Of a stretch of DNA of 39,189 bases, positions 1 to 3,782 are shown one piece after another. The position numbers were made by a program, and so were the translations under genes. Each line of letters begins with the position of its first letter. Position 1 is the first letter of the stretch. The notes beneath the pieces were generated by a model. It ran no database searches. It saw only the letters and a program-made list of their open reading frames with translations, and was not told the DNA's origin. The DNA is from Campylobacterota bacterium (lineage in GTDB: Bacteria > Campylobacterota > Campylobacteria > Campylobacterales > Sulfurovaceae). The stretch spans positions 1-39,189 of the forward strand of contig VCAW01000077.1 in NCBI GenBank assembly GCA_013607775.1. Direction: 5' to 3'.

Positions 1-180
1 TTGCAGGATGTTACTCAGAAAATGCTTGGATTTAGGTGCGAAAGTTAAGTTCTTTTTTTGATTAATTTGAATGGTAATATTAGCTTTTTTTATAAGTTCA
101 ATATCACTGTCATTATTTAAATATGCATATGTATGAAAAACCCCCTGACAGCATAATCCACATTCTTTACAGAGATTAAT
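1..180 (-). CDS. Partial YkgJ-like Cys-cluster protein, runs off left edge
   Basis: Reading leftward from about position 180, one frame stays open for 60 codons to the window edge. It encodes LCKECGLCCQG near its start, the CxxCxxCC signature of the YkgJ/PF03692 family (putative Zn- or Fe-chelating proteins). The sequence then continues as ordinary lysine-rich protein to base 1. No ATG, GTG or TTG precedes the cysteine cluster: an in-frame TAG lies three codons upstream of an ATT, so I placed the left-hand limit of the coding region at that ATT. Either a rare ATT start is used or the true start is in another frame and was lost by an indel; the G5/T5 run at about 137-146 is a possible slip site. 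A second frame on the same strand is open from 389 to 117 (90 codons, ATG at 287), so a frameshifted longer gene is possible. Family call from the motif only; function unknown. Confidence 0.5.
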   Translation of the reverse strand, partial: MNLCKECGLCCQGVFHTYAYLNNDSDIELIKKANITIQINQKKNLTFAPKSKHFLSNILQ

Positions 181-353
181 AGACTATCTTGATTCAAAAC
201 GATTATCCTTTGTGTATAAGGCTTTTTAAGAATAGAAAAACCAATTTTATAGTTAAGTGGAGTATAGCGTATTCCTTCTTGTGTCATGTATTTAATTCTT
301 GGTTTGTACCATTTTTCACAATTTAGAACTAGGTTTATTTCTAAAGAGAATAA

Positions 354-439
354 GTATTCGGTGTGGATGTACCTTGGAATATGGCACGTTTAGAAGAAGT
401 CTATGAAGCCATCTACACCCATACAGATAGCCTAAACTA
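354..439 (+). pseudogene. 28-codon C-terminal coding relic
   Basis: Between an in-frame TAA at 351-353 and a TAA at 437-439 lies a short frame reading VFGVDVPWNMARLEEVYEAI and then IYTHTDSLN. Its codon choice (CGT, GAA GAA, GCC ATC TAC ACC) matches the real genes of this window, whereas the DNA just upstream does not look coding in this frame. I read it as the 3' end of a gene whose 5' part was lost at a breakpoint near 345-353, facing the end of the wzc-like gene. I do not recognise the family. It could also be chance, since 28 codons are few and a 90-codon frame overlaps it on the other strand. Confidence 0.25.
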
Positions 440-444
440 ACAGT

Positions 445-2772
445 TTACTTCTTATCTTCTTCCCTATAACCGTAACCATACCCATATGATTTAACCAGTG
501 GTACATTATTTAAAATGATACCTGGATTGATGTTCTCATCCTGGGTGAGACGGTTGATGTTTTTTATAAAATCTTTTTTTGAGAACTCTGCCTTTGTGAC
601 GATGAGTGTGATGTTTGCCAGGTGCATGATTTTCATGGCATCTGCTACCAGTCCAATAGGTGGTGAGTCTAGCAATACATAGTCATAATGTTACATCAGT
701 TTCTCTGTAATCTTCTCAAGTAAATCTGACATGATAAGCCCCGTAGGATTTGGTGGCTTTGGTCCACTGGTAATGACTTTTAGATGAGGGTTATCTGTCT
801 CTTGTATGGCTTCCTCGAGTGTTGCTCTTTTGGTTAGAAGTGTGCTCATTCCTATGTGGTTGTGTAACTTAAAGTGCTCATGCAGTGTCGCCTTACGCAT
901 GTCCAAGTCCAAGATAATAACAGACTTGTTATTTTGTGCAATGATATTCCCCAACTGTGCAATAGTAAGCGTCTTTCCTTCTGTAGAAACAGATGATGTA
1001 ATGGTAATAAGTTTGGACTTACTTTTAATCTGTGAGAACTCTATATTGCTCCATAAGACATTGATAGCCTCTTTATAGTGGTTTAGACTCTTTTTTGGGT
1101 CTAAGTGAGGTAAAACACTATAGATAGGTATATGCGTCAATTTTTCTATGTCTTCTACTGTCTTAATGGTATTGTTCAAAAAGTTACGTAAAAAGGCAAG
1201 ACTAATACCTAAAATAAGCCCCAAAATAAGTCCTACCAAGATAGTAATAGAACGTTTTGGTTTAATAGGTGCTGATGGCATACTGGCATCTTCGATGATA
1301 CGAATACTTGAAACTGTAGATGCCTCGATAATAGCAGTTTCAGCTCTTTTGTTCAGTAGAAAAGAGTATATTTTTTCATTAAATAAAAAGTTACGGTTTA
1401 GTTGTTCAAGTTGCTGTTCTTGTTCTGGTAGATGTTGTAGCTTCTCTTTATGCTTATTAATGAGTGTTTCTAAAGATTTCTTTTGTTCTCTAAGTGTACG
1501 TAAACTCCCCAATATAGATTCACGCAATGATGTGGTAAGTGAGTTAAGTTCCTTCATGATTTTTAGCATGAGAGGGTGTGATTTTGTATGATATACAGAT
1601 GCTTTTGCGCGTTGCTTAAGCATGCTATGAATTTCTAAGATAATACGGTTGATAGAAGCGTTGGTATGCTGTAAAGAATCAATATTGATGCCTTGAATAT
1701 CTTCATGGGTATCCATATATTGGATTGTATTATCTAGCATATCTATCTGTAGGTTTATTTCATAGAGTTGACTTTCTAGTTGGCTTAGTTTTGTACTGGT
1801 AAGTTGTGCATTGCTGTCTAAACTGACGATAGTATTGGTAGCTTTATAATCTTGTAGTTTTTTAGAAGAACCCTCCAGGGTTTTATGAATAGCCTTTACC
1901 TGCATATCGATAAAATGTAATTTCTTTTTAGCACTCTCTGCTTTGACGTCAAGGTTTTCCTGTATATAGGTATTACTGACCGCTTCCAAAATCTCTTTTG
2001 CTCTGAGTGGCACGGTATCTGTAAAGTTCAGTATGACTATATTTCCCATCTCTTCGTTGGAAGATGCAGAGATGCCACCTTGCATAAAACCAGCCATATA
2101 TTTATTGTCCATTACACTAAAAGCGTATTCTAAATCGTCAGGTTCATATAGTTTTTGAACGGTAAATGAAAACCATTGTGTGACAATTTTTTCTCCATAT
2201 TGATGTGTTTTGTTATAGGTAATGGGTTTTTCATCCTCAGGCTCATTCCCAAAAAGACTATTGGTTATCTTTGTTTTGAGTGAAGGTTCGAGTATAAGTT
2301 GAAAAAGATTTTTTTCAAGAGGTAAAAGTGTGAATTTTACACCTTGAAGTCGTGGGTTTATAGATTCAGACGTAACAACAAACGGAGAATTTTTATAGAG
2401 CTCATGGGTTTTTAAATGTTTGGTGACAAAGTATCGTGTCCCAATATTAAGATGTTTGAGTGCACCTTCTGCTAAGTGACGCGTTTTAAATACGACTAAC
2501 TCATCAAGAATATTATTTCCTTCTTTCCCCATTGCAACACTCATAAAGTCATTTCTGTTACCATAGTAGTCATTAGGATTGAGTTTTATCATGCTTTGTG
2601 ATTGGTAGATGTTGGGAGCAAAATAGGCATAGACAAAGGCAGATAAAGTTGTTAAAATAGTGATAAATATAATCGATTTTTTATATTGTGAGAGTATTGA
2701 AAATATCTCTTTAATATCGATTTCATCTTCATCATTGAAAGTATTAAGAGGTATATCTTCTAAGCGATTCAT
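445..2772 (-). pseudogene. Wzc-type polysaccharide co-polymerase/BY-kinase split by a nonsense codon
   Basis: This is a 776-codon frame on the minus strand with a single internal TAA at 691-693 (codon 694). The N-terminal part has a Wzz chain-length domain with TM1 near residues 35-52, a long coiled-coil periplasmic region and TM2 near 515. A tyrosine-kinase (BY-kinase) domain follows, with Walker A TEGKT near residue 598 and Walker A' LDLDMRK near 619. Beyond the stop, in the same frame, come YDYVLLDSPP (Walker B) and a Tyr-rich tail YGYGYGYREEDKK. Such proteins control polymer length and export of capsule or exopolysaccharide through Wza-type channels and autophosphorylate the Tyr tail. Here the 693-residue product would lack Walker B and the tail, so kinase activity should be lost while the Wzz part may still act. 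The tail fragment has no Walker A of its own. AGGAA lies before the ATG at 2772. A sequencing error or stop readthrough is the alternative. Confidence 0.85.
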
Positions 2773-2922: not shown

Positions 2923-3201
2923 ATGGAGTTAGATCAAAAAGTCATATTTGTCGAGAGTGTTTTTGCACAACTTGTAGATGATGAGATGGTACTTTTAGAC
3001 ATGGAGAGTGAAAACTACTTTGGACTTGATGAAGTAGGTACATCGATTTGGAATGCCATGCAAGAGAACGAGACACTTGAAGAGGTCTTTAGCGTATTGT
3101 TGGAACAGTATGATGTAGGAGAAGAGATGTTGAAAAATGATTTACTCAATTTCGTGACAAAACTGGTAGACAATGGACTGGCAAAGGTAGTACAACAGTG
3201 A
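2923..3201 (+). CDS. PqqD-like (RiPP recognition element) protein
   Basis: The 92-residue protein follows the PqqD pattern (PF05402): a two-strand start, then [20 protein letters not shown], then a helical part beginning [16 protein letters not shown] and ending NGLAKVV. PqqD-fold domains bind leader peptides for radical-SAM or other RiPP enzymes; many stand-alone copies sit in polysaccharide or asparagine-synthase-type clusters where their role is unknown. No precursor peptide, radical-SAM enzyme or ABC peptidase is visible in this window. The stop overlaps the rsmG start (GTGA), so the two are probably translationally coupled. GAAGG lies 7 nt before the ATG. The divergent wzc-like gene may be the remaining trace of the partner cluster. 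The fold call is fairly firm, the role is not. Confidence 0.75.
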
Positions 3202-3782
3202 ATTTAACACAATTACTTGACAAAGAGGGCATGACTATCTCCTCAGAGACTATCGTAAAACTTGAAAACTTTGCTTCCTTGCTTCATGAATGGAATCAAA
3301 TACATAACCTTACAGGTGCTAAAACGGTAGAGGCTATTTATGTGAATATTGTAGATTCACTCTATCCTTTGACGTTTATAAAACAGCCCAAAAGTTTGCT
3401 TGATGTAGGTACCGGTGCAGGCTTTCCTGGATTGGCACTAGCTATTGCTATGCCTGAGACTGAAGTAGTATTGGCAGAACCTCTGAAAAAACGTGTCTCT
3501 TTTTTAAAGTATGCAGCGATAGATTTGGTATTGCCTAATGTGAGTGTAGAGGCTAAAAGAGTAGAGTTTGTAGAGCATGAAGCTTTTGAACTTATCTCTT
3601 CGCGTGCAGTGACCAATACCAAGTTACTATTGGACTTGACCAAAGAGATAAGTGACAGTAAAACAGAATATCTTTTCTATAAAGGTTCACGTGTTTTTGA
3701 TGAGATAGAAGATGTACAACATCAGTTAGATTATGATATAGTACAGAAAAACCAGCGTAATTACCTATATATAAAGAGTTAA
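3198..3782 (+). CDS. rsmG: 16S rRNA (guanine-527-N7)-methyltransferase RsmG
   Basis: RsmG (GidB) methylates N7 of G527 in 16S rRNA using S-adenosylmethionine; its loss gives low-level streptomycin resistance in other bacteria. The 194-residue protein has the family's HNLTG at 36-40, the SAM loop [12 protein letters not shown] ending near 78, [11 protein letters not shown] at the second strand, and SRAV near 135-138. The length is close to the usual ~200. Translation starts with GTG at 3198, inside the stop of the PqqD-like gene (4-nt overlap), and the next gene begins 3 nt after the stop, so all belong to one transcript. Confidence 0.95.

Follow-up and report, generated by a model that had tools for sequence, protein, structure and literature searches.

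The analysed window, a stretch of 39,189 nucleotides, is an entire contig of a Sulfurovaceae genome of the sulfur-oxidizer type and probably carries a recently inactivated, wza-less Wzc-type polysaccharide co-polymerase/BY-kinase gene within a collapsing lasso-peptide-type locus. The genome is assembled in 268 contigs and is 97.6% complete, and the contig ends 444 bases past the kinase gene. The kinase frame lies on the minus strand at 445..2772 and encodes 774 residues plus an internal stop. Translation of the minus strand from 2772 to 445 confirmed the claim of the first-pass annotation that a single in-frame TAA (691..693, minus strand) interrupts an otherwise open frame; this stop is the sole lesion and the terminal stop is normal. 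The TAA is codon 694, one codon ahead of the Walker B motif YDYVLLDSPP, and the product ends at residue 693.

Pfam comparisons placed a Wzz domain (residues 16-91; PF02706, 45.2 bits against a cut-off of 25.5) and a GNVR domain (residues 452-531; PF13807, 69.8 bits against a cut-off of 27.7) ahead of the stop, and split the AAA_31 kinase domain, with a part on either side of the TAA. When aligned with relatives, a Walker-A-like SSVSTEGKT and a Walker-A'-like VIILDLDMRK were also found upstream of the stop. Walker B and the YGYGYGY tail are encoded only downstream of it, in a remnant at 445..690 (minus strand) that includes the C-terminal part of the kinase and has 39-57% identity to relatives. 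The earlier description of a shortened protein that keeps Wzz and Walker A and loses Walker B and the tyrosine tail matches these domain and motif positions. The nearest named proteins in NCBIfam and PDB comparisons were Wzc and Etk, and the window gene is a BY-kinase by descent, not a working one as written.

To place the stop among relatives, we compared it with 29 nearly full-length homologues out of 60 related genomes and with 50 further loci retrieved from GTDB genomes by an alignment query, 46 of which span the codon and a few of which come from genomes of the first set. No internal stop was present in any of the 29 homologues or in any of the 50 further loci. Among the 29 homologues, the residue aligned to the stop is E in 20, K in 4, A in 2, and S, T and N in one each, with Q in none. 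E is also dominant in the wider set, where three loci have Q (L124, L130, L144), and it is the residue of the closest locus, L123 (about 52%). It had been proposed that the TAA arose from CAA by a change at position 692, but with the gene on the minus strand the first base of the codon is position 693 of the plus strand, and a CAA origin, while possible, is not favoured because relatives usually have E and rarely Q at that residue.

The part behind the stop has remained conserved, with 81 conserved residues continuing in frame. Similarity to L002 and L003 is 56% in this part versus 49% in the kinase part ahead of the stop, and 2 of 17 conserved columns are changed, which is inside the range of the relatives and gives no clear sign of relaxation. 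Judged from these alignments, the stop is more than chance. Since the stop is absent in relatives and the residues behind it are still conserved, it would be either recent or an assembly error, and the absence of clear relaxation likewise suggests that the inactivation is very recent or that it is a sequence or strain artefact. An open frame behind the stop, as read from the DNA, is not evidence of its translation.

The genes beside the kinase are damaged as well. A truncated relic and a frame-damaged YkgJ-like gene had been noted here at first pass, and both are real. The relic, at 354..440 on the plus strand, consists of the last 28 codons and the stop of an HprK-related (lasso-type) kinase, the remainder of which is gone; it is 40-65% identical to the C-termini of 16 HprK-like proteins from homologous loci, with E-values down to 2e-9. 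The YkgJ-like (CxxCxxCC) gene at 49..290 on the minus strand has a frame change near 175-200, and its 3' part is cut by an IS-like repeat; we infer the extent of this gene upstream of the CxxC part. A PF03692 search for its other half past the repeat found no second half at any repeat end, and a weak match in C153 proved unrelated and was rejected. The repeat is multicopy, and its end occupies 1..51 of the window with the terminal repeat ATTTAGGTGCGAAAGTTAAGTT, a sequence common to two different repeat ends. Another 20 long matches to it occur across the genome, almost all of them where contigs end (L045-L072). This repeat breaks the assembly, and the contigs do not include its transposase.

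On the other side of the kinase gene is an intact gene for a PqqD/lasso B1-like RiPP recognition protein (2923..3201, plus strand; PF05402, 64.1 bits, cut-off 23.4), the best NCBIfam match of which is lasso_PqqD_Bac at 57.7 bits, under that family's cut-off of 80. It is followed by rsmG (3198..3782, plus strand), which anchors the homologous locus in relatives. By ORF sizes and spacing, the contig holds no visibly broken gene from 2923 to 39149.

Many Sulfurovum-type genomes have a lasso-type cluster ahead of pqqD-rsmG, made up of ABC, B2, HprK, an Asn-synthase-like protein and short peptides, and this cluster sometimes includes a member of the window kinase's lineage. An intact kinase of the same lineage is found at the lasso-type locus in G035 (L032/L133 = G035:C17) and in L135, and a further intact kinase lies beside HprK in L131, which was assigned to such a locus by this HprK neighbour. 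All three of these Sulfurovum kinases are near HprK genes, and those of L133 and L135 are near pqqD-rsmG, as is the window kinase. The strand that carries the cluster also carries these intact genes, whereas the window kinase is stopped and is encoded opposite to the HprK tail and pqqD, between which it lies. Of the cluster, the window retains only these two and the stopped kinase. In G030, a second member of the genus, the same kinase has been wrecked independently at the same place (L100:5561-6180), where an internal deletion joins approximately residue 107 to residue 285 and is followed by a frame break and then truncation, leaving two fragments. The ABC gene of G030 is also split. NCBIfam matches to HprK and cyclase in the relatives are far under the curated cut-offs.

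The intact second wzc that had been suggested as a check was not found in the 97.6%-complete genome, and the window kinase is the only co-polymerase found. Wza (PF02563) was unmatched across the genome, a result that may be limited by assembly gaps, and CpsB was not found in this genome. The same genome gave no match to the lasso B2 protease (PF13471), no NF033535-like protein as an Asn-synthase-like cyclase and, in a search run without a positive control, no intact HprK-like protein. With 268 contigs, Wza and the other partners could sit in assembly gaps. Among the relatives, 39 of 60 have Wza, mostly adjoining wzc; a linkage of wzc and wza in all relatives was considered and rejected, as the neighbourhoods revealed a separate wza-less group. 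In trees, the window kinase and the copies from these loci grouped together, three of them with support of 97/92, and with more taxa they fell within a wider, mostly wza-less group (support 86/85 to 87/69). Because the clean clade of lasso-locus copies weakened on adding taxa, we dropped it and claim only the wider group.

Taken together, we consider decay of the locus to be the probable explanation. The lasso-type cluster beside pqqD-rsmG would have lost nearly everything except pqqD, and the leftover kinase would then have gained a nonsense codon in a genome rich in the IS-like repeat. If translated, the 693 residues ahead of the stop would form a membrane co-polymerase whose kinase is dead, lacking the Walker B aspartate and the tyrosine tail. 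The stop is presumably fixed in the population and the product non-functional. That the locus is decaying, as the first-pass annotation had suggested, is supported by the reduction of HprK to 28 codons, the broken YkgJ-like gene, the missing lasso-type genes and the independently wrecked kinase of G030.

It is rather unlikely that most cells carry an intact gene and that the TAA comes from an error of consensus calling or assembly, or from a minority strain, in an assembly that is fragmented and probably derived from a metagenome. A single lesion in 774 codons, with the part behind it conserved like the rest, is what such an origin would leave, and the assembly is in 268 contigs with the kinase gene close to a contig end; however, the remainder of the contig is without a visibly broken gene, the neighbours are independently damaged and another species has lost the same kinase. 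The complete Wzz and GNVR domains would suit a 693-residue protein that works as a kinase-less co-polymerase like the Wzz-type (PCP-1) proteins, yet we regard this as quite improbable given that half an ATPase fold is retained, the genome has no detected polymer-export partner and the full kinase is kept in relatives. Assembly of group 1 capsule also reportedly requires Wzc phosphorylation (Wugeditsch et al. 2001).

Readthrough or recoding of the stop, or a translation restart that yields a separate C-terminal piece, would make use of the conserved frame that runs on behind it, but between the TAA and the Walker B aspartate the sole in-frame start is a TTG that itself falls within Walker B, and the other window genes read normally, with TAA as a stop. 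We know of no working BY-kinase that is split at this point, and consider this explanation very unlikely. As an alternative to decay, the first-pass annotation had suggested that the stop switches capsule output reversibly. Stops and frame changes in capsule genes, including wzc, do arise under selection in Klebsiella experimental evolution (PMC9376106). At the window stop, however, there is no tandem or simple repeat and there are no inverted arms or invertible element, and searches of the genome found neither wza nor cpsB nor another co-polymerase, so a switch has next to no probability here; a nonsense base change would also revert by rare point mutation only. The inactivation itself resembles ordinary gene decay rather than a switch, and the first interpretation is therefore only partly supported, its decay standing, its switch not, and its CAA origin being possible but not favoured.

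The Wzc and Etk tyrosine autokinases (PCP-2a; PDB 9r62, 7nhr, 3la6) have Wzz, GNVR, Walker A and Walker A' in common with the window kinase. The window differs from them in that Walker B and the tyrosine tail, though still encoded, lie behind a nonsense codon, and in that the genome has no detected Wza partner and the locus is not a capsule operon. Lasso clusters containing HPr-kinase homologues are known (PMC8498205), as is leader binding by B1/PqqD (PMC5067487). The loci of the relatives share B1/PqqD, B2, an Asn-synthase-like cyclase, HprK and ABC with paeninodin-type lasso clusters that have an HPr-kinase homologue (PMC8498205, PMC5067487), and their candidate leader peptides share the Y-x-x-P-x-L-x-x-L-G stretch; in the window, by contrast, only PqqD and the HprK tail are left of such a cluster.

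Candidate lasso-type RiPP precursors were observed in Campylobacterota as short ORFs (about 55-90 aa) adjoining HprK and PqqD genes (L032, L131, L135, L102, L105, L108, L111, L114, L115, L118, L141, L142, L145). Their candidate leaders follow the pattern RRxFLKKxxYxxPxLxxLGxLxKP, with variable, GPP/W-rich ends, and NCBIfam gave them no name save a weak TAT-signal match. In Sulfurimonas (L141:71-4701, L142, L145), PqqD, an HprK-like kinase and such a peptide are found inside a wza-wzc capsule-type locus, and these loci are a second link between capsule-type and PqqD/HprK gene sets.

On its own, the stop amounts to ordinary decay in a genome with many copies of an IS-like repeat; the lead of greater interest is that the kinase is associated with a lasso-type locus. 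Several Campylobacterota have a Wzc-type kinase adjoining HprK-like kinases, PqqD and short peptides with a Y-x-x-P leader, which brings surface-polysaccharide and RiPP genes together. A limited literature search found no work that connects Wzc to lasso, PqqD and HprK. We tentatively suggest that the wza-less Wzc-type lineage in Sulfurovaceae may serve lasso-peptide-type (HprK/PqqD) loci rather than capsule export and may be gained and lost with them, in which case the window would have captured one such system dying.
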